Shown piece after piece: positions 1,648 through 23,558 of a stretch of DNA of 51,286 nucleotides. This stretch comes from Desulfarculus sp. (GTDB lineage: Bacteria; Desulfobacterota; Desulfarculia; Desulfarculales; Desulfarculaceae). The stretch spans positions 1-51,286 of the forward strand of contig QZKP01000055.1 in NCBI GenBank assembly GCA_003605055.1. The letters run 5' to 3'. Every line of letters starts with the position of its first letter. Within the stretch, counting starts at the first letter, position 1. The notes beneath the pieces were generated by a model. The model saw only the letters and a program-made list of their open reading frames with translations, did no database searches and was not told the DNA's origin. The translations under genes were made by a program, and so were the position numbers.

Positions 1648-2856
1648 CTAACCCCGGACCGCCCGCAGGGCCTGGGCCTGGCCCAGCAGCGCCAGCAGGG
1701 TGGCGATCACCACCGCGGCCAGACAGCCCCACTGCACCGCGCTCAGGCTGGAGAGATCCCAGAGCAGCGAAAGCGCCTGCGGCGCCACGGCGTAGCCGGT
1801 GAACTTGATGGCGTTGTACAGCGAGGTCACCGGCCGGCGCAGCTCCGGGGAGAGGTCCACGGCCATGGTGTTGAGCACGGTCCAGGCGGCGGCCACGCCG
1901 GTGCCGTACATCAGGAACCAGAGCAGGTAACGGTCGTAGGAGTAGGGCAGCAAGGCCATCAGGCTGATGCCCGCCAGGGCCAGGCCGGCGCCGGCCAGGA
2001 CCACCCGCCGCCGGCCCATACGGTCGCCCAGGTAGCCGGCGAAGGGCGAGATGACCACGCCGGCTATGCCGGCCGCGGACAGCAGGGCGCCCACCTTGTC
2101 CGAGGCCAGGCCTTGGACGGTCTTCAGGTACTGGGCGGTGAAGGTCAGGATGCCGATGTAGCACACAAACAGGAAGAAGGCGGCAAAGCCCACGGACAGG
2201 GCGCCGGGCAGGACCAGGGCCCGGCGGAAATCGGCCGCCACCGCCCCCAGGGCCACCTTGCCGCCCGCCGGGGGCGGCGCGGACCGACTGGAGGGCAGGT
2301 AGAGCAGGCAGGCAGTCAAGGACAGGCCAACCAGGAAGTAAAAAAAAGAGGGCCAGCCGTAGTGAGTCTCCAGCAGGCCCGAGATCAGGGGGCCCAGAGT
2401 GACCCCGGCGGTGCTGAACAGGCCCAGCATGCCCATGGTCTTGCCCAGGTGGCGCTGGGGCACCAACTCGCCGATCTGGGCCATGGCCACCGGGATGACC
2501 AGGCCGGCGCCGGTGCCCTGCACCATGCGGCCGGCGAACAGGGTCCAGCGGTCCGGGGCCAGGCCGCAGATGGCCGCCCCCAGGGCATAGGTCAGCAGAC
2601 CCATGATCAGGGCCTTGCGCTCGTCGCATAACTGGGCCAGGGAGCCGGCCATTAGCTGGATGATGATGAAGGGGGCCATGTAAAAGGGGATCACCAGGGT
2701 GGCCAGGGAGAAGGGCAGGGACCACTGCTGGGTGAACACCGGGATCAGGGGCACCACCCCTATGCCGCCCATGGGGGCGATCATGGAGCCTAAAAACAGG
2801 GAGAAGAGCTGGGCCAGGTGCAAACGCTCGTCCTGCGGCAGGGGCTGGCTGGACAT
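1648..2856 (-). CDS. MFS transporter (DHA-type drug/metabolite exporter family)
   Basis: This protein of about 402 residues has roughly twelve hydrophobic helices. The loop after helix 2 lacks the usual motif A in this reading, but the equivalent loop between helices 8 and 9 keeps it (GYLGDRMGRRRVV). The helix-4/5 region (AGRMVQGTGAGLVIPVAMAQ) matches 12/14-TM drug:proton antiporters. I start at the ATG at 2856 (MSSQPLPQDERL). The same frame is open to 2961, but the extra 35 residues are basic and non-membrane and look like read-through of upstream sequence. It converges on the metallo-hydrolase with a 10-bp gap. Substrate unknown; efflux is the usual role. Confidence 0.87.
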   Translation of the reverse strand: MSSQPLPQDERLHLAQLFSLFLGSMIAPMGGIGVVPLIPVFTQQWSLPFSLATLVIPFYMAPFIIIQLMAGSLAQLCDERKALIMGLLTYALGAAICGLAPDRWTLFAGRMVQGTGAGLVIPVAMAQIGELVPQRHLGKTMGMLGLFSTAGVTLGPLISGLLETHYGWPSFFYFLVGLSLTACLLYLPSSRSAPPPAGGKVALGAVAADFRRALVLPGALSVGFAAFFLFVCYIGILTFTAQYLKTVQGLASDKVGALLSAAGIAGVVISPFAGYLGDRMGRRRVVLAGAGLALAGISLMALLPYSYDRYLLWFLMYGTGVAAAWTVLNTMAVDLSPELRRPVTSLYNAIKFTGYAVAPQALSLLWDLSSLSAVQWGCLAAVVIATLLALLGQAQALRAVRG

Positions 2857-3507: not shown

Positions 3508-4685
3508 ACAACGGCGCCTCAGGCTTCGGCAGCCGGCGGGTGGTGGCCGCTTCGGTGGGCCACTTCGTGCACGACGTATTCACCGCCTTCCTGCCCCCCC
3601 TTATGCCCCTGCTCATCGCCAAGTTCAGCCTGAACATGGTCCAGGCCGGGCTGTTGAGCGTGTTCCTGAGCCTGGTCTTTTTCCTCAACCCGCTGCTGGG
3701 CATTTTGGCCGACCGCCGTGACCTGCGCTACGCCTTCATCGCCGCTCCGGCCCTGGTGGGCGTGTGCATGGGTCTGATGGGCGCCATGCCCAGCTACTAC
3801 CTGGTCTGCGCCCTGTTGTTGGTGGCCGGCGCCGGCTCGGCGGTGTACCACACCCTGGGGCCGGTGGTCATCACCCGCGCCTCGGGACGGCTGGTGGGGC
3901 GGGGCATGAGCTACTTCTTCACCGGCGGGGAACTGGCCCGCACCTTGGGTCCTCTGGCCGCGGTGGGGGCGGTGGCCTGGCTGGGCTTCGAGCACCTCTG
4001 GCCGATGCTGCTATTGGGCTTGGCCACCTCGGCCTATCTGCTGCTGGTGTTCAAGGACACCAACACCGCCTTGGGCGCGGGCAGCGGCCGCGACCCGGAG
4101 TCCCTGCGCGTGGTGTGGCGGGCCTTGAAAGCAGTGATGTTGCCCCTGGTGGGGCTGGTGTTCACGCGCAGCTTCGTCCTCTGGACCCTGATGATCTACA
4201 CCCCCACCTATCTGGTCAGCCGCGGCCACAGCGTCTCCTTCGGCGGCACCGGCCTGGCGGTCATGGAGATGGCCGGGGTGGCCGGTGCCTTCCTGGGCGG
4301 CCTGGCCAGCGACCGCTGGGGGCGGCGGCCGGTGCTCCTGGCCCTGCTGCTGGTCTCCCCCCTGCTCATGCTGGCTTTCAACTACAGCAGCGGCTGGCTG
4401 CTCTGGCCGGTGCTGGTCGTCTTGGGCCTGAGCGTGTTCTCCTCCAGCCCGGTGCTCTTGGCCATGGTGCAGGACCACGCGGCCGGCCGCCGGGGCGCGG
4501 CCAACGGCCTGTACATGGGCATGGGCTTCGCCGTCTCCTCCCTGGTGCTGGTGCTGGTGGGCTGGCTGGTGGATTTGGTGGGCTTTAGGGCGGCCTTCAA
4601 CATCAGCGCCGTGATGGGGCTATTGAGCGTGCCCTTCGCCCTGCGCCTGCCGGCCCAGGCGCCCGCGGCACCCACCGCACCCTAG
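3504..4685 (+). CDS. MFS transporter (fosmidomycin resistance protein-like group)
   Basis: This 393-residue membrane protein has about twelve helices. The N-terminal part (VGHFVHDVFTAFLPPLMPLL, then a short loop ending ILADRRDLRY) resembles the Fsr/fosmidomycin-resistance branch of the major facilitator superfamily. The second half has the motif A copy ASDRWGRRPVLLALLL. The start is a TTG at 3504 overlapping the thioesterase stop, with GGGAGCGG upstream. No other start lies between the previous gene and the first helix. Co-transcription with a thioesterase could mean export of a released acid, but that is a guess. Followed by 85 bp of non-coding sequence before the convergent flippase gene. 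Confidence 0.85.
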   Translation: MNNGASGFGSRRVVAASVGHFVHDVFTAFLPPLMPLLIAKFSLNMVQAGLLSVFLSLVFFLNPLLGILADRRDLRYAFIAAPALVGVCMGLMGAMPSYYLVCALLLVAGAGSAVYHTLGPVVITRASGRLVGRGMSYFFTGGELARTLGPLAAVGAVAWLGFEHLWPMLLLGLATSAYLLLVFKDTNTALGAGSGRDPESLRVVWRALKAVMLPLVGLVFTRSFVLWTLMIYTPTYLVSRGHSVSFGGTGLAVMEMAGVAGAFLGGLASDRWGRRPVLLALLLVSPLLMLAFNYSSGWLLWPVLVVLGLSVFSSSPVLLAMVQDHAAGRRGAANGLYMGMGFAVSSLVLVLVGWLVDLVGFRAAFNISAVMGLLSVPFALRLPAQAPAAPTAP

Positions 4686-4770
4686 CCTGGATACTCCAAG
4701 GAGGTTGGGCGTCCGGCTTGGTCCGAGCCCCGCCGGCTGCATGGCCGCCGGCGCGGGCGCCCCGACGTAG

Positions 4771-6270
4771 CTAGTCGCGCGGCTTCGCCTCCGGCTCCGG
4801 TTCACCCGGCCGTCGCACCTGGCGCCGCAGCATCTCCAAGAGCCTCTGTTTGATCTTGGGTTCCCGCCTGAGCATCAGCGCCGCATAGACCAGGGAAAAC
4901 ACCAGATACAGCCCCAGGCCCAGCCAGCGCCGCTGGGTGAGGTAGTAGAAGGCCGTGGGCGGGGCCAGGGCCGCGGCGGCGTAGAGTATCTCCTTGACGA
5001 AGATTAGGATCACGTTGCGGGCGCGCACCTTGCCCAGGTGCAGGCAGAAGACGAACATGTGGCCGTAGACCAGGGAGCCGCCCAGGGAGAACAGGGCCAC
5101 GGCCAGGCGGGGGCCGCCCAGCCAGCCGCCCAGCAGCAGGGTGGCCGCGGAGACCACCAACTGGGCCACTGAATACCACAGCAGCAGATGGGCCCGCCGG
5201 ACGATGAGGAACACGTTGCCGAAGGGGGTGGTCAGGATGTTGGCGAAGACCCACAGAGACTGAAGTTGGCACAACACCGCCGCCTCGTCCCAGCGGGAGC
5301 CGAACAGGATGTTGAAGAACAGGGGGGCCAGCAGGCCCAGGCTGAGCAGGGGGTAGACCGCCACCGCGGAAAAGATGCGCACCGTCTTCAGGATGGTGCC
5401 GGTGACCGAGCCGTTTTCCTGCCACTCCTGGGCGGCCTGGGGATAGAAGACCTGATCCACGCTGATGCCGAACAGGCGCTGGGGCAAGGTGATGATGGTG
5501 CGGGCAAAGGCGAAGTAGCCCAGGGTGACCGGGCCGAACAGGAAGCCCAGCACGAAAAAGGGGATGCGCATGGCGCTGACCTTGAGCAGCGAGGTCCACA
5601 TTTGGAGCTTGGGGAACTGGCCGTGCTTTTTGGCCACTTCCCTGAGGCTGGGGATGGGGTAAAGGCCGGGGGGCCGATTGCGGTGAAAGATGGCGGCCAA
5701 CAGCCCCAGGGCGATCACCGCGCCGATGGAGATGCCCAAGAGGTTGCCCATGAACAGCCCCAGGGTGCTGGCCCCCAGCAGCAGGGCCCAGAGTATGGTC
5801 AGCAGCCGCTCCAGGTTGATGGCCAGGAAGGTCACCAGGGAGATGACCCCGAAGCGGCCCTCTTTCATCAGGGCGTCGTCGGCGATGCTGCTCAGGCTGT
5901 CCAGCAGGAACAACAGGGGCACGAACCACAGAAAGGGCGCGATGGCCGGCTCGCGCATGAGCTGGGCCACCAGGGAGCCGCCGAGGCCGAAGATCAGGGT
6001 GACGGGTATGAGCAGCAGGGCGGTAAGCCACAGGCACAGCCGCACCAGGGCCCGGTTCTCGGCCCGGTCCTGGGCCATGGGCAGGGCCTGGTAGTAGCCC
6101 AGGGTGGCGAAGGCGGAGACCCAGGTGGCCACCGCGCCCACCAGACCGTAGATGCCGAAGTGCTCGGGCAGGTAGAGGCGGGCCACGATGGGCATGGCCA
6201 CTAGGCCCAGGGCAAAGGACAGGCCCCGGCTGAGCGTGAGTTGGGAGATGTTGCTGATGAAGCTGGCCAT
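4771..6270 (-). CDS. Wzx-like polysaccharide flippase (lipopolysaccharide biosynthesis protein)
   Basis: This 499-residue protein has 12-14 predicted membrane helices and an N-terminus (ISQLTLSRGLSFALGLVAMP followed by ARLYLPEHFGIYG) typical of polysaccharide-synthesis flippases of the MOP superfamily. These move undecaprenyl-linked oligosaccharides across the inner membrane. The C-terminus is basic and rich in Arg/Pro/Glu. The ATG at 6270 has an AGGAG ribosome site at the right distance; the same frame continues to 6369 but that part is not conserved in character. No glycosyltransferase genes adjoin it, so it is an isolated flippase gene here and its glycan is unknown. Confidence 0.86.
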   Translation of the reverse strand: MASFISNISQLTLSRGLSFALGLVAMPIVARLYLPEHFGIYGLVGAVATWVSAFATLGYYQALPMAQDRAENRALVRLCLWLTALLLIPVTLIFGLGGSLVAQLMREPAIAPFLWFVPLLFLLDSLSSIADDALMKEGRFGVISLVTFLAINLERLLTILWALLLGASTLGLFMGNLLGISIGAVIALGLLAAIFHRNRPPGLYPIPSLREVAKKHGQFPKLQMWTSLLKVSAMRIPFFVLGFLFGPVTLGYFAFARTIITLPQRLFGISVDQVFYPQAAQEWQENGSVTGTILKTVRIFSAVAVYPLLSLGLLAPLFFNILFGSRWDEAAVLCQLQSLWVFANILTTPFGNVFLIVRRAHLLLWYSVAQLVVSAATLLLGGWLGGPRLAVALFSLGGSLVYGHMFVFCLHLGKVRARNVILIFVKEILYAAAALAPPTAFYYLTQRRWLGLGLYLVFSLVYAALMLRREPKIKQRLLEMLRRQVRRPGEPEPEAKPRD

Positions 6271-16638: not shown

Positions 16639-17814
16639 CTAGCCCTCCTGACCGGCCGTGCGCACAGCCATGCCGTCGCTGACCTCGCGGAGGTTGCTGG
16701 TGACCACCTGGGAGCCCTGGGGCAGGCCGGGATGGAGCAGGGCCTGGGTGCCCTGCAGGCGGGCCACCTTGACCTTGGTGAAGCGCAGCTTGCCGCCGGG
16801 CCCCGCCACCCACACCACGTCCCCCTGACGCAGGGCCGCGCGGGGGATCAGGCTGGCTGCGGGCAGGGTGTGGCCCATGATCTCCACCTTGGCGAACATG
16901 CCCATGGCCAGGGGGGGCAGGCTGGCGTAGGGCCGCTCCACCCGCACCACCACCCCCACCAGGCGAGTGCGCTGGTCCACCTGGCCCAGGGCCCGCACCA
17001 CCTGGCCTGGCCAGGACATCTGGCGGCCGGCGAAGTCGGCCTTGACCATAGCCGGGGAGCCTTGTTTGCTCTGGGTGGTGAGGCCGGGCACATCCAGCCA
17101 GGCCAGATCATGGTCCTCGATGTAGACGTATATTTCCGCCGCCTCGATGGAAAACACCGTGGCCACCGTGGCGCCTTTGCTCAGGTACTGGCCCAGGTCC
17201 ACGCTTTCGCTCACCACCCGGCCGTCAAAGGGGGCCCTGATCTCAGTGCGCTGGAGGTTAAGACGCGCCTGCTCCACCTGAGCCTGGGCCCCCTCCAAGC
17301 TGGCCTGGTATTGGGCCAACTGGGGAGCCTTTACCAGGAGGGCGGGCGGCTCGCTGGGGTCCTTGCCGCTGTCTTTGTTAAGTAAACGCCACTCCTCCCG
17401 GGCGGCGGCGGCCTCTTCGGTGGTGGTGCGCAGGTTGGTTTCCGCCGCCTTGACCGAGGCCTCGGCCAAGGTCAGGGCTAGGCGATAGTCCTTTTGCTCG
17501 ATCTTGAGCAGCAGCTCGCCCTTTTTAAACGAACCCCCGGCCACCAGGTTGGGCGAGACATAGACCACCCGCCCGGCCACCTCGGCGGCCAGGGTGGCCT
17601 GGCTGAAGGGCACCACCGTGCCTTCGCCGTATACGGTGATCCGCACCGGCTCCCGGTCCACCTTGATGGTGCGCACCAGGGGGCTCAGCACCTCCGGGGT
17701 CTTGCGGGAAGGGGGCTTCTTGCTCAGGGCCAAGGTGGCCAGAATGCCCGCCCCGACGAGCAGGAATATGGCCACCACGGCGGAATGGATGAGAAGTTTC
17801 TTGCGCCGTTGCAT
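16639..17814 (-). CDS. RND efflux periplasmic adaptor (membrane fusion protein)
   Basis: This 391-residue adaptor links the pump to the outer-membrane channel. It has an N-terminal membrane anchor (about residues 8-29), the lipoyl/barrel-sandwich strand AGRVVYVSPNLVAGGSFKKG, a coiled-coil hairpin rich in Ala/Glu/Gln (about 105-185), then TEIRAPFDGRVVSESVDLGQ closing the lipoyl half, and a C-terminal beta-barrel and membrane-proximal domain. The residues DPSEPPALLV interrupt the hairpin tip. The ATG has GGAG upstream and begins 3 bp after the upstream outer-membrane gene. No lipobox is seen, so it is probably anchored by the uncleaved helix. Confidence 0.93.
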   Translation of the reverse strand: MQRRKKLLIHSAVVAIFLLVGAGILATLALSKKPPSRKTPEVLSPLVRTIKVDREPVRITVYGEGTVVPFSQATLAAEVAGRVVYVSPNLVAGGSFKKGELLLKIEQKDYRLALTLAEASVKAAETNLRTTTEEAAAAREEWRLLNKDSGKDPSEPPALLVKAPQLAQYQASLEGAQAQVEQARLNLQRTEIRAPFDGRVVSESVDLGQYLSKGATVATVFSIEAAEIYVYIEDHDLAWLDVPGLTTQSKQGSPAMVKADFAGRQMSWPGQVVRALGQVDQRTRLVGVVVRVERPYASLPPLAMGMFAKVEIMGHTLPAASLIPRAALRQGDVVWVAGPGGKLRFTKVKVARLQGTQALLHPGLPQGSQVVTSNLREVSDGMAVRTAGQEG

Positions 17815-17817
17815 GAT

Positions 17818-19263
17818 TTAGTTCTCCGCTTGAGCCAGGGGGGGCGGGCTGGCCCAGCCTCCGCCCAGGGCGCGGTGAAGAGTTACCCGGTTGGTCAGGA
17901 TGGCCAGCTCAGTGACCACCAACTGATTCTCCAGGGAGTAGCGGGTCTGCTGGGCCTCCAGCACGGTCAGATAGTCCTGCAGGCCCCGCGCGTAGCGGTC
18001 CTCGGCGGTACGCTGGGTGGCCGCTGCCTCCTTGACCGCCTCCTTGAGCCGCTGGCGCCGCCGTTGTTGCTCCTCCCGGGTCACCAGGGCGCCCTCCACC
18101 TCGGCGAAGGCGCCCAGCACGGTCTTGGCGTAGCTGGCCACCCCCTGCTGGTAGCGGGCCTGGGCCGCCTTTTCGCCGGCCTCCAGGCGGCCGGCGTTGA
18201 AGACCGGCTGGCTGAGGCCCATGGCCAGACTCCAAAGCTCATGGGCCGGGGAGAACAGGGTTTGCAGGCCGCTGCTGGAGTAGCCGTAGCTGCCGGTCAG
18301 GCTGAGGGAGGGGAAGCGGGCGGCGCGGGCCACCCCGACCTTTTCGCTCAGGGACTTGAGCCCCGCCTCGGCGGCCCTGAGGTCCGGCCGGCGCAGCAAC
18401 AGCTCAGAGGGCAGGCCCGGCGGCACCGGCTGCAGGCGCGCCAGGTAGTCGATAGCCGGATCGGGGTAGGGGGTGATCCGGGGATACCTGCCCAGGAGCA
18501 CGGCCAGCTCCTGCTGGGCCAAGGCCAACTCCTGCTGCAGGCTGGGGCGTTCCGCCTGGGCCTGGGCCAGGGTGCGCCGCGCCTGTCTCAGGTCCAGCAC
18601 GCTCACCAGGCCCCGCCGGTAACGGCCCTCCACCAGGCGCAGGCTCTTTTGGTAGGCCTGGATGCTTTGGGCGTTCACCACCAGGCGCCGCTGCAGGATG
18701 CGCACCTTGAAATAGCTGGTGATCACGTTGGCCACCACCGTCTGGTACACGGTGCGGCGGTTCTCCTGGGCCTGCAACAGCTCCGCCCGGGCGGCGGCCT
18801 CGCTGCGGGCCAGCTTGCCCCAAAGGTCCACCTCAAAGCTGGCCGCCAGGGAGATGTTGTAGGTCTCGGCCTCTCCGCCAGTGGCGATGGGCAGGCCGGC
18901 CACGCCCACTGTGCGCTGCTTCTGGGCGCTGCCTTGCAGGTTCACCGTGGGCCAGCGCTGCGAGGCGCTCTGCACAAAGGCGGCCCCCAGCTCCAGCACC
19001 CGTCCGGCCGCCGCCTCCAGGTCCAGGTTGCGCTGCAGGGCCTCAGCGACCACCTGGTTGAGCTGGGGGTCGCTGAACTGCTGCCACCAGCGCTCAGCGG
19101 GCTTGAAGGGCACCACCTCCCGGGCCTGGTCATAGGCCGGAGGCACCTCATAGGCGAACCGGGGCCGCTGGTAGTCCGGCCCCACCTTCAGGCAGCCGGA
19201 ACCCACCAGGGCCAGGGCCAGCAGCAGGCCCAAGGTCAGGGGCGTCAGCGCAGGCTTGGTCAT
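17818..19263 (-). CDS. Outer-membrane efflux lipoprotein (OprM/NodT-type TolC homologue)
   Basis: This 481-residue protein begins with a lipoprotein signal ending in the lipobox LVGSGC (Cys24 lipidated), then KVGPDYQRP, the hallmark start of the NodT/OprM family. Two repeats of the outer-membrane efflux domain follow: long helices with Ala/Gln/Glu-rich heptads around residues 75-260 and 290-460, and the strand ISLAASFEVDLWGKL. Trimers form the outer-membrane and periplasmic channel of the tripartite pump. Its ATG overlaps the TetR stop by 4 bases (ATGA), with GGAGGAG upstream. Confidence 0.94.
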   Translation of the reverse strand: MTKPALTPLTLGLLLALALVGSGCLKVGPDYQRPRFAYEVPPAYDQAREVVPFKPAERWWQQFSDPQLNQVVAEALQRNLDLEAAAGRVLELGAAFVQSASQRWPTVNLQGSAQKQRTVGVAGLPIATGGEAETYNISLAASFEVDLWGKLARSEAAARAELLQAQENRRTVYQTVVANVITSYFKVRILQRRLVVNAQSIQAYQKSLRLVEGRYRRGLVSVLDLRQARRTLAQAQAERPSLQQELALAQQELAVLLGRYPRITPYPDPAIDYLARLQPVPPGLPSELLLRRPDLRAAEAGLKSLSEKVGVARAARFPSLSLTGSYGYSSSGLQTLFSPAHELWSLAMGLSQPVFNAGRLEAGEKAAQARYQQGVASYAKTVLGAFAEVEGALVTREEQQRRRQRLKEAVKEAAATQRTAEDRYARGLQDYLTVLEAQQTRYSLENQLVVTELAILTNRVTLHRALGGGWASPPPLAQAEN

Positions 19264-19907
19264 GCCGTCTCCTCCAGGCCCAGGCCGCGCAGGGTGAAGT
19301 CGGTGATGTGCGTGATCAGCTCCTCCACAAAGGCCGGGTCGTAGCCGCGGCCGGTAACCAGGCTCACTACCGGCCGGGCGAAGTTGAAATAGAGCACCTG
19401 GGCGAAGATGGACAGGACGACGAGCTTCAGGCGTTCCTCCCCCAAGGCATAGGGCAGGGTGCGCTGGAGAAGGCGCACGCTCTGTTCCATGGCCGGTTTG
19501 AGTTGCCCCTCGGCCAGCACCTCAAAGGCCTCGGTGGGATTTTCCATCTCCCGGGCGATGAGCTTGGTGTGCAGCACCCGCTCCTCGGGGGTGAGCGGTC
19601 CCCGCAAAAAGGCGCGAGCCAGGCCGTGCACCACCTGCCGGGGAGTGACCTTATCCTGCTGGGCCAGGTCTCTTAGGGGCTGGCCCACCCTGGCCGCCCG
19701 GGCCATCCAGCGGGAGCGAAACACGGCGAGGTACAGGTTCTTCTTGCTGCCAAAGTGGTAGTTGACCGCGGCCAGGTTGCTGCCTGCGGCCTTGGTGATC
19801 TCGCGCACGCTCACCGCGGTAAAGCCTTTCTCGGCGAACAGCTTCTCCGCCTCATCCAGCAGGCGCTCGCGGGTGGGGTCAGGGGGGTGGGATTTTTCTT
19901 CAGGCAT
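19260..19907 (-). CDS. TetR-family repressor of the efflux operon (CecR-like)
   Basis: This 215-residue regulator has an N-terminal HTH (RERLLDEAEKLFAEKGF, then VREITKAAGSNLAAVNYHFG and SKKNLYLAVF), typical of TetR proteins. Its C-terminal ligand domain resembles the CecR/DUF1956 group. The ATG at 19907 has AGGAGAG at good spacing; the open frame extends to 19943 but would run into the operator region. It is the first gene of the efflux operon and overlaps the channel gene, so it probably represses itself together with the pump. Two inverted repeats immediately upstream (19928-19955) are the likely operator. The inducer is unknown. Confidence 0.92.
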   Translation of the reverse strand: MPEEKSHPPDPTRERLLDEAEKLFAEKGFTAVSVREITKAAGSNLAAVNYHFGSKKNLYLAVFRSRWMARAARVGQPLRDLAQQDKVTPRQVVHGLARAFLRGPLTPEERVLHTKLIAREMENPTEAFEVLAEGQLKPAMEQSVRLLQRTLPYALGEERLKLVVLSIFAQVLYFNFARPVVSLVTGRGYDPAFVEELITHITDFTLRGLGLEETA

Positions 19908-19927
19908 ATGCTCTCCTGCATTATTCG

Positions 19928-19955
19928 CAAACATTTGTATCAAACGAACGTTTGA
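19928..19955 (-). promoter_or_regulatory. Candidate TetR operator pair upstream of the efflux operon
   Basis: A perfect inverted repeat with 7-bp arms, TCAAACG-AA-CGTTTGA (19940-19955), is followed 2 bp away by a shorter one, CAAA-CA-TTTG (19928-19937). Both share the CAAAC half-site and sit 20-50 bp before the tetR start, where an autorepressor would bind. Assignment to this TetR is by position. Confidence 0.65.
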
Positions 19956-20294
19956 ATTTCAAGTGGGCAGGCATATTTTCTTGTACTTTTTCCTTGGGGC
20001 GGGGTCCGGGGGTTGACCGAGCCCCAAGCTCAATTTATCTTCATCCCCAGCAACGGCTGTGCGCGGCCAGGGGAGGCTCAATGGCCTGCTGGGACAGCAG
20101 GTTTTGTGCCAACTATCCGTTAGGGCGGGCATTTTATAAATAAGCCCTATTAGCAGGTGGTTCTGCCCTTGCTCCAAGACGCAGCGCCTTTGGCGGCTGC
20201 CAGCGGCTGGGAAAAAAAGAGACGGCTGGAGCTTATAGCGCGAAATGTTTATGCATATGGCGGACGGGCGGCCCCATGCCCGAGGAGAACAACC
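19956..20294. other. Intergenic region between divergent tetR and the NifU-like gene
   Basis: About 340 bp lie between the operator and the next gene, more AT-rich than its surroundings. No convincing gene is present; frames here lack ribosome sites and family features. Apart from the TetR operator at its left edge and the GAGGAG ribosome site at its right edge, I see no clear promoter or hairpin. Confidence 0.5.
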
Positions 20295-20735
20295 TTGAGC
20301 CCTGAACATCAGCACCCTGGCCACGCGCAGGAGACAGGTTCCTTTGGCGAGGCCTTTCTGGCCCATGCCCTCACTCCCCAGAACCTGGGCGCCCTGCCCA
20401 ACCCCGAGGGCTTTGCCCGGCCCCAACGCGACTGCGGGGACTACATCGAGCTGTATTTGCGCATCCAGGACGAGGTGATCAGCGACGCCCGTTTCCTGAC
20501 CGAGGGCTGTGTGCAGGTGGTGGCCTGCGGCAGCGCCCTGACCTGCCTGATCAAGGGCCGGCCGGTCAGCCAGGCGCTCCAGGTAGACGCGGAGCTGATC
20601 CAGGCCGAGCTGGGCGGCCTGCCCCCGCAGCACCGCCACTGCGCCGAGTTGGCCGAGCGCACCCTTAAGGAGGCCCTGCGCGACTACTGGAGCCGGCGGC
20701 GGTCGCCCTGGCGGGCGGTTTATCCCCGGCGCTAG
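20295..20735 (+). CDS. NifU/IscU-like iron-sulfur cluster scaffold protein
   Basis: This 146-residue protein matches the NifU N-terminal/IscU scaffold on which [2Fe-2S] and [4Fe-4S] clusters are built. The cluster ligands are in place: C47 in QRDCGDYIEL, C72 in TEGCVQVVACGS, and H115-C116 in PQHRHCAELA; C78 and C84 are extra. Asp49 of the DCGD loop is the residue that normally promotes cluster release. I start at TTG 20295 because CGAGGAG lies 8 bp upstream; the frame is open further upstream to 20157 without a ribosome site. No cysteine desulfurase adjoins it, so its sulfur donor is encoded elsewhere. The C-terminus is a short Arg-rich tail. Confidence 0.87.
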   Translation: MSPEHQHPGHAQETGSFGEAFLAHALTPQNLGALPNPEGFARPQRDCGDYIELYLRIQDEVISDARFLTEGCVQVVACGSALTCLIKGRPVSQALQVDAELIQAELGGLPPQHRHCAELAERTLKEALRDYWSRRRSPWRAVYPRR

Positions 20736-20828
20736 GGTTGCGCGCCGGCCCCGGCCGGGCGTGGTACCATAGAGGCGCAGGCAAGCAGGACGCCGGAACG
20801 ACTGATTGGAGCCAAGCGGAGGGTCTCC

Positions 20829-21623
20829 ATGCTGGAGGCAAACTTATCCTGGGTGCGCATGGCCTTCTTTTTCGGCGGCCTGGCGTTCTTCCTGCTGCTG
20901 GAGCTGATCCTCCCCTATCGCCGGCCTTCGGTGAGCAAGCTCAAGCGTTGGCTGATCAATCTGGGCATAACCACCTTCAATACCCTCATCCTGCGCCTGG
21001 TCTTGGGCAGCGCCATCGTGGCCACGGCGGCCTATGTCACCCAGCAGAAGATGGGGGTGCTGAACCTGGTGGCCATGCCCTACTGGTTGAAGCTGTTGGC
21101 CACCTTGGTCTTCATGGACTTCATGCTCTATATCTGGCACCTGCTCAACCACGAGGTGCCTTTTTTCTGGCGCTTCCACCGGGTTCACCACACGGACCTG
21201 AACATGGACGTGTCCACCGCCACCCGCTTTCACCTGGGCGAGTTGGCCATCAGCGCCGGCATCAAGATCGGCCTGGTCTTTTTCCTGGGCGCGGACCTGT
21301 TAGGCGTGACGATCTTTGAGACGGCCCTGGTCCTGGCCGCCCAGTTCCACCACTCCAGCCTCAAGGTGCCCTGGTGGTTCGAGCGCCTGTTCTGGCTGCT
21401 GTTCGTGCCCCCCTCCATGCACCGCATCCACCACTCGGTGAAGATCCCCGAGCGCAACTCCAACTACGGCACCATCTTCTCCCTGTGGGACCGCCTGCTG
21501 GGCACCATGGTCAGCCGGGTGGAGCAGGGGCGCATCATCATCGGCGTGGGCGGCCACTTCGATCAGAGCGAGCTGGGCCTGCACCGGCTCTTGGTCATGC
21601 CCTTCGCCCCGCCGGTGCCCTAG
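20829..21623 (+). CDS. Sterol desaturase/fatty acid hydroxylase-family membrane di-iron protein
   Basis: This 264-residue membrane protein has four or more helices and the family's histidine clusters: HLLNH (HX3H), FHRVHHTD (HX2HH) and MHRIHHS (HX2HH), plus FHHSS between them. These ligate a di-iron centre that hydroxylates or desaturates lipids, normally using oxygen. The segment NYGTIFSLWDRLLGT closes the family signature. The ATG has GGAGGG upstream. In a presumed anaerobe such an enzyme could act in trace oxygen or have another role; this is open. The rhodanese-ferritin gene follows 23 bp later, possibly in one transcript. Confidence 0.9.
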   Translation: MLEANLSWVRMAFFFGGLAFFLLLELILPYRRPSVSKLKRWLINLGITTFNTLILRLVLGSAIVATAAYVTQQKMGVLNLVAMPYWLKLLATLVFMDFMLYIWHLLNHEVPFFWRFHRVHHTDLNMDVSTATRFHLGELAISAGIKIGLVFFLGADLLGVTIFETALVLAAQFHHSSLKVPWWFERLFWLLFVPPSMHRIHHSVKIPERNSNYGTIFSLWDRLLGTMVSRVEQGRIIIGVGGHFDQSELGLHRLLVMPFAPPVP

Positions 21624-21646
21624 GCGCCCGTTCCTGGAGGAGTCCT

Positions 21647-22483
21647 ATGCAGATCGCCAAGCTGATCCAGAAGGCCCCCAGCCTCAGCCCCGCGGAGCTG
21701 CGCCGCTTCATGGACCAGCATCCGCCGGGCAGCTACACCCTCCTGGACGTGCGCCAGCCCAAGGAATACGAAGAGCGCCACCTGCCCGGGGCCAAGCTGA
21801 TACCCTTGCCCGAGTTGAACGCCCGCCTGAGGGAGCTGGACCGCAGCCAGCCGGTGGTGGCTTACTGAGCCCTGGGCGCACGCAGCCGGGCGGCTGCGCA
21901 GCTCCTGCAGGGCCAGGGCTTTGCCGAGGTTTACAACCTGGCCGGGGGCATCAAGGCCTGGGACGGTCTGGTGGCAGCGGGCCCCGAGTCCTGGGGCCTG
22001 GAGTTGGCCGAGCCCGGCCAGGGGCCGGTTGCGGTGCTGGCCGCGGCCTACGGCCTGGAGCAGGGTCTGGCCCTGTTCTACCGGGCCCTGGCCGGCCGCG
22101 GCGGCGGTGTGGAGTTGACCGCCTTGTATAACAAGCTGGCCGGCATCGAGGTCCTGCACCAAGAGCGCCTCAAGGCCATGTATGATGCCTTGCCCCGGCC
22201 GCAGCAGCAGGAGGCGCCCCTGGGTCAGGCCGCGCCGGTGCGCATGGAAGGCGGTTATACCTGGCAGGAGTTCCTGGAACGGCAGGGCGAGGCCCTGGCC
22301 GGCCCGGAGGCGGCGCTGATGCTGGCCATGGGCATCGAGACCCAGGCCCTGGACCTGTACTTGCGCCTGGCCCAGCGGGCCCGGCAGGAGCAGAGCCGGC
22401 AGGCGCTGTTGGACATCGCCGGCGAGGAGCAGGCCCATTTGCAGGCCCTGGGCCGGATGCTGGACCAGGTGCAAGGCGGCTGA
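21647..22483 (+). CDS. Putative selenoprotein: rhodanese (Sec74) fused to a rubrerythrin-like ferritin domain
   Basis: Read through an in-frame TGA at 21866-21868, this is one 278-residue protein. Residues 1-110 form a rhodanese domain: LLDVRQPKEYEERHLPGAKL, then PVVAY-U-ALGARS, then VYNLAGGIKAW. The TGA falls exactly on the catalytic Cys of the CxxGxxS loop, so selenocysteine would be the sulfur/selenium-carrying residue. Residues 128-274 carry the four di-iron ferritin motifs: E138 (GLEQG), E168/H171 (EVLH), E231 (GIETQ) and E260-E261/H264 (EEQAH). The ATG has GGAGGAG upstream. A SECIS-like hairpin lies 19 nt after the TGA. The frame after the TGA is intact for 204 codons, which argues against decay. 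Function is probably sulfane or selenium sulfur transfer coupled to peroxide or iron chemistry (inferred). A cysteine-to-stop mutation is the alternative. Confidence 0.75.
21866..21913 (+). promoter_or_regulatory. SECIS-like hairpin directing UGA recoding
   Basis: Right after the TGA, GCCCTG (21869-21874) can pair with CAGGGC (21908-21913), and an upper 7-bp stem CGCAGCC/GGCTGCG (21881-21887 with 21892-21898) closes a GGGC loop. The loop starts with G and lies 19 nt from the TGA, inside the 16-37 nt window known for bacterial SECIS elements. GC-rich coding sequence can form hairpins by chance, so the element is supported mainly by its position. Confidence 0.6.
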
Positions 22484-22498
22484 GTCCGCGGCCGGGCG

Positions 22499-22535
22499 CA
22501 AAAAAAGCCCCGCCTGGAGGGCGGGGCTTTTTGCG
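22499..22535. terminator. Bidirectional intrinsic terminator
   Basis: GCCCCGCC (22507-22514) pairs perfectly with GGCGGGGC (22520-22527) around a 5-nt loop, flanked by A6 on the left and T5 on the right. It terminates the rhodanese-ferritin transcript rightward and the convergent PEP-CTERM gene leftward. Confidence 0.93.
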
Positions 22536-22548
22536 TGTCAGATTGGGC

Positions 22549-23331
22549 TTAGCTCGCGCGGCCCTTCTTGCGGCGGCGGCGCAGCCAGCCGCCGGTGGCG
22601 GCCAGGCCCGAGGCCAGCAGCAGCATGCTGCCGGGCTCAGGGGCCTTGGAGGCCATGATCAGGTCCTGGCGGTCGCTCTGGTCGTTGATGGTGAAGTTGA
22701 GGGCGCCGGAGAGAACCACCTGGCCGCCGTTGGCGGTCTTGTGCTCGCTCAGGGCCACCAGGTAGGTGCTGGCTAGGTTGGCGATGGAGCCGCTGCTGAT
22801 GTAGAAGCGGCTGCTGGTGTCGGTGATGGCGGAGGAGGTGTAGGAGGTACTGTGGTCCATTACCACTTCCCAGATGGCGTACTGCACCGCCTGGATGACG
22901 GTCTTCACCGCGGCCGAATCGTAGTTAACCGCGCCGGGGTTATCCAGCCAGGTCACGCCGGGCGCATAGTTCTCCATGAGCCAGGCCGCCTCTTTCCAGT
23001 CAAACTGCAGGGGCTGGGGCGTCACCTCCGGCCCGGTCCACAGGTTGGGGTCCCCGGGGGTGATGGGGTTGGCGAAGGTCTGGATGGGATCCAGGCAGTA
23101 GCCGAACCACATGGCGTTGTGATAGGCGGTGGTGGAGTAGAATTCAGCGGTCTGGGCGCTTCTCTGGATTCCGTCCACCCAATAGGTGGCCCCCAGGTTG
23201 CCGTGCGTGGACACGGTCATGGTGTCGGCCAAGGCCCAGGTGGAAAATAGGCCGATCAGAAGGACCGCCACGCCCGTCACAGCTAGGCGAGTCACCTTGC
23301 TCATAACTCTTTTACTTCCCATGGTTGACAT
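22549..23331 (-). CDS. PEP-CTERM surface protein with thioester-domain-like features
   Basis: This 260-residue secreted protein has a signal peptide (helix about residues 16-34, ending TWALAD) and a C-terminal PEP-CTERM signal: APEPGSMLLLASGLAATGGW followed by RRRRKK. Exosortase would cleave near Pro-Glu-Pro (231-233) and anchor or release it. Between them, GYCLDP (C79), AAWLMENYAPG and AVQYAIWEV (Q150) match the pattern of thioester domains, in which Cys and Gln form an internal thioester that bonds covalently to surfaces. I start at ATG 23331, preceded by AAGTGAG; ATGs at 23322 and 23304 are alternatives and the frame runs to 23397. Exosortase is not in the window. Adhesion is inferred. Confidence 0.85.
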   Translation of the reverse strand: MSTMGSKRVMSKVTRLAVTGVAVLLIGLFSTWALADTMTVSTHGNLGATYWVDGIQRSAQTAEFYSTTAYHNAMWFGYCLDPIQTFANPITPGDPNLWTGPEVTPQPLQFDWKEAAWLMENYAPGVTWLDNPGAVNYDSAAVKTVIQAVQYAIWEVVMDHSTSYTSSAITDTSSRFYISSGSIANLASTYLVALSEHKTANGGQVVLSGALNFTINDQSDRQDLIMASKAPEPGSMLLLASGLAATGGWLRRRRKKGRAS

Positions 23332-23558
23332 CTCACTTAAAAAGGTCCACCCCGAAGGACTTAATTCCCTGCTTAATATATATAATTTTAGCACCAAATT
23401 TTTAATTGCAACAATTATTTTTTGACTATTATTAATGCCTTTCGTTTTTATTCCTAATGTTGCCGGCCAATACCAGTATCCTTGCTGGAATAGTTCACCT
23501 GCAAGAAAGTAGTTTCACACTGGCGGCTTCTTTTTTCGCATCATTAATCAATAGCTTG

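Follow-up and report, generated by a model that had tools for sequence, protein, structure and literature searches.

Rhodanese-like selenoproteins are known from several sources. The accessible text of the review PMC13188914 tabulates them in five forms (UxxS, UxxG, CxU, UxxG and UxxxxU), of which form 1 is UxxS, form 3 is CxU (NF041203) and form 5 is TsoB, with two selenocysteines (NF045694). As far as the accessible text of the further papers goes, rhodanese types also appear among the selenoproteins of an earlier review (PMC9312934), a rhodanese-like domain occurs among those of a marine deltaproteobacterial genome (PMC8318568), and rhodanese-related sulfurtransferases are listed in the Sargasso Sea and GOS surveys (PMC1088965, PMC2398784), in agreement with what a sequence-only reading of the DNA analyzed here had said of marine surveys; the rhodaneses of PMC8346489 are separate proteins. 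Neither "ferritin" nor "rubrerythrin" appears in the accessible main texts of PMC13188914, PMC9312934, PMC1088965, PMC2398784, PMC8318568, PMC1794560 and PMC5029168, and no rhodanese-ferritin selenoprotein fusion was found described in the partly accessible literature searched for it.

Here we describe a gene of this kind from Desulfarculus sp., in a stretch of 51,286 nucleotides that was analyzed as a whole (the window). It links a rhodanese and a di-iron site in a single chain, and its one in-frame UGA lies in the active-site loop of the rhodanese (Table 1). Since rhodanese selenoproteins are known already, the term "new-type", which the sequence-only reading had applied to the protein, does not hold for seleno-rhodaneses as such; it does hold for the ferritin fusion, which, as far as seen in the accessible sources, is an apparently undescribed selenoprotein architecture. 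Forms 2 and 4 of PMC13188914 have a UxxG like the U-A-L-G of the window protein, and selenocysteine (here predicted) in the rhodanese domain is common to both; the fusion is set apart from them by their published description only, and a listed UxxG form, for example the form 2 example MBM9537886.1 or MCY3690685.1, could be the same fusion. With the curated families NF041203 (rhodanese-related (seleno)protein) and NF045694 (TsoB) the fusion shares rhodanese homology, but its scores of 32.4 against a cut-off of 115 and of 20 against a cut-off of 805, respectively, rule out membership in either, and no NCBIfam model fits it, with all 17 matches falling under their cut-offs.

Table 1. Features of the fusion gene and its surroundings, in window positions
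Feature	Positions	Strand	Basis or remark
ORF with NifU_N match (residues 68-181); start probably further in	20157..20735	+	two genes upstream
Fatty acid hydroxylase / sterol desaturase family gene, PF04116	20829..21623	+	ends ~24 nt upstream of the fusion gene
Rhodanese/ferritin-like fusion CDS, 278 residues, predicted Sec at 74	21647..22483	+	direct reading, Pfam, relatives, dN/dS
Rhodanese domain, residues 15-106, loop U-A-L-G-A-R-S (U predicted)	21689..21964	+	PF00581
In-frame UGA, codon 74, rhodanese catalytic position	21866..21868	+	direct reading, same codon in relatives
Hairpin CGCAGCC/GGCUGCG, loop GGGC, putative bacterial SECIS	21881..21898	+	folding, comparison with relatives
Ferritin-like di-iron domain, residues 128-271	22028..22459	+	Pfam, ligands, PDB sequence matches 2fzf and 1vjx
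Terminator-like palindromic hairpin, then TTTTT	22507..22532	+	direct reading; motif-search match on the other strand only

The gene starts at an ATG (21647) immediately preceded by GGAGGAG and ends at a TGA (22481-22483). On direct reading the frame is open but for the single TGA at codon 74, with 204 codons between it and the gene end, just as the sequence-only reading had reported. An open frame alone is weak evidence in such G+C-rich DNA, where an antisense ORF of 293 amino acids (21620-22501) overlies the fusion gene at the same place; it is homology and selection across the TGA that make the read-through frame more than chance. In the read-through translation, the Pfam rhodanese domain spans the TGA (E 1e-21; 77.7 bits against a cut-off of 22.2), and both the domain match and an active-site loop with its nucleophile position are present. 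Relatives with Cys have TGC or TGT at this codon, and the TGA occupies the position of the sulfur-carrying, catalytic cysteine of rhodaneses, where the sequence-only reading had placed it.

In the ferritin-like part of the same translation, Rubrerythrin (PF02915) matches the C-terminal half only (residues 224-276, E 7e-8, 33.4 bits, cut-off 22.8), the Pfam family Ferritin_2 remains under its cut-off across residues 128-271 (18.3 against 24.7 bits), and the ferritin-like PDB chain 2fzf is matched by the family profile across residues 124-268 (E 4.1e-10). The predicted di-iron ligands of the window protein (E138, E168xxH171, E231 and E261xxH264) form the E, ExxH, E, ExxH set that it has in common with rubrerythrin and ferritin-like proteins (PF02915; PDB 2fzf, 1vjx). 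Each ligand is kept in 77 to 81 of 81 proteins, namely the window protein and the best 80 of 541 relatives (hereafter the 81-protein set), and the earlier assignment of a ferritin-like domain with all four di-iron motifs is thus upheld. The fusion differs from those proteins in that its ferritin-like domain sits behind a rhodanese and has an EGG motif at residues 201-203 (22247-22255), after the second ligand stretch and before the third. The Glu of this motif (Glu201) does not vary (81/81 in the 81-protein set) and might be an extra metal ligand. Moreover, classical rubrerythrin has a C-terminal rubredoxin Cys4 iron site, whereas the window protein, with zero cysteine residues, lacks this site.

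Across relatives, codon 74 alternates between TGA and cysteine codons. Matches over both domains were found in 15 of 20 genomes of the same family, with TGA at codon 74 in 6, Cys in 9, and no other stop. Among the best 80 of 541 named relatives, retrieved with two search patterns of which one has Cys at the site, codon 74 is TGA in 36 (one of them, L139, from Desulfospira joergensenii DSM 10085), TGC in 34 and TGT in 10, with no TAA, TAG or other non-Cys codon at the site; Cys and TGA are thus the only alternatives in both sets, as expected from the earlier selenoprotein proposal. We further searched an even draw of 395 genomes from the phylum, using a model built with C in place of U, and obtained a match in 105 of them (E 1e-35 or better), for 110 matches in all, three of which hold the rhodanese part only (G397, G047 and one of two in G024) and two further ones of which are incomplete (G290 and the other one of G024). 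Exactly one in-frame TGA was present in 31 of the 110 matches, window included, and in all 31 it falls on the codon-74 site, pointing to a common selenoprotein architecture. Every copy read has either TGA or Cys at the site, the pattern of UGA where homologues have Cys by which bacterial selenoproteins are recognized. On a tree of the 81-protein set, constructed with the site masked, 14 Sec/Cys changes are needed, at least 8 of them forced by well-supported branches, and the nearest named neighbors of the window protein are Desulfarculaceae.

Several individual loci depart from the common pattern. In G047 (L218) a rhodanese part has TGA at the site but soon closes with a TAA; this may be a lone seleno-rhodanese, a frameshift or decay. 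A Cys form in G154 (L215) has an in-frame TAG in its ferritin-like domain, which may encode pyrrolysine or reflect a mutation or an error. In genome G105 a Sec form of the fusion coexists with a distant paralogue of the Cys type (L216, L217), the latter possibly a selenium-independent backup.

Read as a real stop, the TGA would leave a truncated rhodanese and a separate, internally started ferritin-like protein, or else would mark a pseudogene or a sequencing error. An ORF running from a GTG at 21971 to 22483 is compatible with this, as are the tRNA-Sec gene not found in the draft genome (see below) and the additional in-frame TGA that one of the 36 TGA relatives (L145, match 4001-4819) has within its ferritin-like part, itself explicable by decay, error or a second Sec. 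However, a stop is hard to reconcile with a site that is TGA in 36 of the best 80 of 541 relatives and never TAA or TAG, or with the rhodanese residues just past it, G77, R79 and S80, which are invariant in 81/81 proteins and 37/37 TGA forms of the 81-protein set. The sequence past the TGA is also under purifying selection, with dN/dS values 3' of the TGA of 0.10-0.32 in 8 TGA-TGA pairs, resembling those of the pre-TGA part and of three Cys-Cys pairs (0.09-0.21); all 11 pairs were picked by hand, and the pre-TGA value of the L126-L145 pair (0.000) is saturated and without meaning. A sequencing error, an alternative that the sequence-only reading had itself named, would hardly recur at one codon across many separate assemblies, and on the strength of this recurrence together with the purifying selection we reject sequencing error or a pseudogene. 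Taken as a whole, we regard the real-stop explanation as extremely improbable. TGA as a general sense codon is likewise rejected, as the fusion gene itself ends in TGA.

The source genome, available at draft level (3.6 Mb, 78 contigs, 93.9% completeness), encodes selenocysteine machinery above cut-off, with selB at 382.9 bits, selA at 606.1 and selD at 371.8. Its selD (L017, G000:C22, ~2392-2394, minus strand) is of the Sec type, having an in-frame TGA within AGUAAKIG at what we take to be the usual Sec/Cys site of SelD. Within the family, selA occurs in 17 of 20 genomes, including 5 of the 6 TGA-form ones; the exception, G017, is 71% complete. Of the machinery genes that the sequence-only reading had named, selA, selB and selD are thereby present in the source genome, but tRNA-Sec was not found in the draft, where 150 of 845 first-look candidates were scored. 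A tRNA-Sec pattern gave four matches in this genome, three at loci in which ARAGORN called no tRNA-Sec and a fourth overlapping one of these, and ARAGORN likewise called none over the selA, selB and selD loci. In a search of nine genomes, with 150 first-look candidates scored per genome, ARAGORN called a tRNA-SeC (tca) in five (G001, G004, G007 and the TGA-form genomes G012 and G013), while none was found in the TGA-form drafts G000 (the source genome), G010, G016 and G017, which are 4 of the 6 TGA-form genomes searched. In G010 and G016 the gene adjoining tRNA-Sec begins broken at contig starts, and in G000 and G017 the tRNA-Sec region yields only short, weak matches, so that the missing tRNA-Sec is likely an assembly gap.

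Combined with the TGA/Cys alternation and the recurrence of the TGA across separate assemblies, the presence of selA, selB and selD indicates that the TGA at codon 74 is very probably read as selenocysteine, in support of the original proposal.

A hairpin closely 3' of the UGA is a further feature of bacterial selenoprotein genes, and the window gene has a SECIS-like one. The segment from base 13 to base 30 past the UGA, which starts 12 bases after it, can fold into a stem with at least six pairs. Scoring the hairpin in two registers, which were defined after inspecting the TGA sequences, we found it complete in 26 of 37 TGA forms versus 3 of 44 Cys forms of the 81-protein set (Fisher p 1.5e-9); the strict hairpin is correspondingly absent from 11 of the 37 TGA forms and present in the 3 Cys forms. 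The amino acids encoded at the hairpin are nearly alike in TGA and Cys forms, and the stem is made by synonymous codons: within the 81-protein set, GCT stands at codon 83 in 30 of 37 TGA versus 8 of 44 Cys forms, and GCG at codon 84 in 23 of 37 versus 4 of 44. In 2000 synonymous resamplings each, complete hairpins reached at most 6 of 37 with the codons of Cys relatives and at most 9 of 37 with those of TGA forms. Those loci of the phylum sample that were read for the hairpin, whose organisms partly overlap the named relatives, show a similar distribution (complete in 17 of 29 TGA versus 1 of 15 Cys loci).

Other measures of the hairpin are less marked. By itself, the window hairpin is ordinary for its composition (z -1.53). 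The mean folding energy is lower than in any of 60 resamplings with TGA-form codons, but lies only ~1.7 standard deviations below the null mean with the codons of Cys relatives. Over 8 independent pairs on the tree, the hairpin accompanies TGA in a mean of 4.7 versus 0.1 in the opposite direction (median sign-test p 0.0625); neither of the two single wobble sites reaches significance in this independent-pair test. Recoding of the UGA is strongly backed by the comparisons with relatives, and we consider it likely that the fusion gene is a selenoprotein gene in which SelB would bring Sec-tRNA to the UGA, helped by the hairpin, and the ribosome would continue through both domains.

The lack of cysteine in the window protein narrows the chemistry that is possible for the predicted selenocysteine. 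In UxxC selenoproteins a selenenylsulfide forms with an in-chain partner, which is impossible in the cysteine-free window protein. Cysteine is scarce across the family too: 31 of 37 Sec forms and 29 of 44 Cys forms of the 81-protein set are Cys-free apart from site 74, and no further alignment column of this set has Cys in 8 or more of its 81 rows. With no in-chain partner, the natural interpretation is that sulfane sulfur or selenium is carried and then taken over by an external thiol or the di-iron site. Functionally, the lone Sec74 thus probably carries sulfane sulfur and is coupled to the di-iron site. The sequence-only reading had likewise suggested that such a protein might couple sulfane or selenium transfer with the handling of oxidants or iron. 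In such a mechanism Sec74, as the sole Sec or Cys of the chain, would hold sulfane sulfur (Se-S-) as Cys does in ordinary rhodaneses, turnover, for want of a partner cysteine, would have to draw on an external thiol or on the di-iron site, and sulfane or persulfide reducing equivalents would be coupled at the di-iron center to the reduction of peroxide or oxygen, with redox enzymes encoded next door as possible partners.

Genes next to the fusion gene were compared across the 81 loci of the 81-protein set, with neighbors assigned through BLAST similarity to a single tested member of each group. The counts are lower bounds, as many loci end near the fusion gene, and one or two members per neighbor group were compared with families. 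Of the 81 loci, 23 have a homologue of the fatty acid hydroxylase adjoining on the same strand (upstream in 12, downstream in 11), and 21 have a TIGR03169-like flavoprotein there (downstream in 15, upstream in 6). A VTT/MerA-like flavoprotein gene lies further downstream on the same strand in 6 loci, and a SagB-like nitroreductase gene upstream on the same strand in 7, all of them Sec forms (L121, L126, L129, L138, L145, L151 and L157) and none Cys forms. The neighbor sets vary between lineages, and the shifting order of these four redox-type neighbors on both sides of the fusion gene suggests that the association is real.

The TIGR03169-like gene raises the possibility of selenium delivery, in which a perselenide on Sec74 (or Cys) would be passed to selenophosphate synthetase with the flavoprotein as reductase. 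Besides the frequent adjacency of this gene, a title in the reference list of PMC5877670 names rhodanese perselenide as a possible selenium donor. However, the one member tested scores 264.9 bits for TIGR03169 (Nterm_to_SelD), below the cut-off of 310, no such gene stands beside the window copy (the best match in its genome has 85.7 bits), the gene is similarly common by Sec (11) and Cys (10) forms within the 81-protein set, and the di-iron domain would be left without a role, making selenium delivery unlikely.

The NifU_N ORF two genes upstream would in turn fit a supply of Fe-S clusters, in which a NifU/IscU-like scaffold would receive sulfur from the rhodanese and iron from the ferritin-like domain. 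Four of the other 80 loci (best 80 of 541) have homologues of this ORF near the fusion gene within the flanks covered, but all five NifU_N-bearing loci fall within one clade of the tree; with such a neighbor in only five of 81 loci, a role confined to Fe-S assembly is rejected, and Fe-S supply more broadly seems quite unlikely.

Solved fusions of rhodaneses to redox enzymes suggest a third alternative, namely persulfide oxidation, in which the di-iron site would oxygenate sulfane sulfur bound to Sec74, like persulfide dioxygenase-rhodanese fusions that use another iron fold. The rhodanese part of the window protein is matched by BpPRF (5ve3), which we take to be a persulfide dioxygenase fusion, by a CoA-persulfide reductase (8a56) and by a CoA-disulfide reductase (3icr), all of which place a rhodanese beside a redox catalyst, as the fusion does. 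In these three, however, the partner domains are different, the rhodanese is C-terminal and presumably uses Cys, and the match is limited to the rhodanese part. Many hosts of the fusion are named after sulfate-reducing groups, which are anaerobes, and an oxygen-using enzyme would rarely work there; we consider persulfide oxidation very unlikely.

The redox-type neighbors and the lack of cysteine together favor a reductase of peroxide or oxygen over selenium delivery, Fe-S supply and persulfide oxidation. That persulfide or sulfane (or selenium-linked) reducing equivalents drive peroxide or oxygen reduction at the di-iron center is plausible, at somewhat less than an even chance. More tentatively, and rather doubtfully as a general statement, the fusion may represent a widespread selenoenzyme class of the phylum in which a lone Sec in a rhodanese loop would feed sulfane or selenane equivalents straight to a fused di-iron site, giving a persulfide-driven, selenium-boosted peroxide/oxygen reductase without a resolving cysteine. 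Such a catalytic plan was not found described for selenoproteins in the accessible text of the literature compared.

Gene calling that treats every TGA as a stop would yield a 73-residue stub or a pseudogene at such loci, and thus Sec use in fusion-bearing bacteria may be undercounted. The repeated exchange of Sec and Cys at a single site, in mostly otherwise Cys-free proteins, provides a clean natural experiment on what selenium contributes to sulfane-sulfur chemistry.

Around the fusion gene, Rfam gave nothing at gathering score in the window, and no sigma-70-like promoter was detected in 20400-22700. A PEP-CTERM protein gene on the minus strand (22549-23397) converges on the fusion gene, with the terminator-like palindrome between them. 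Further upstream, 16639-19943 on the minus strand encodes in series an HlyD-family adaptor, a NodT-type outer membrane efflux protein and a TetR/CecR-type regulator. Elsewhere in the source genome we observed a second candidate selenoprotein (L042, G000:C7), a multi-rhodanese protein with CEGFR-U-VLSP and a TGA at 1006-1008, which fits form 1 (UxxS) and may be ExtH-like; matches in other genomes appear to have one TGA in a stretch similar to that of L042.
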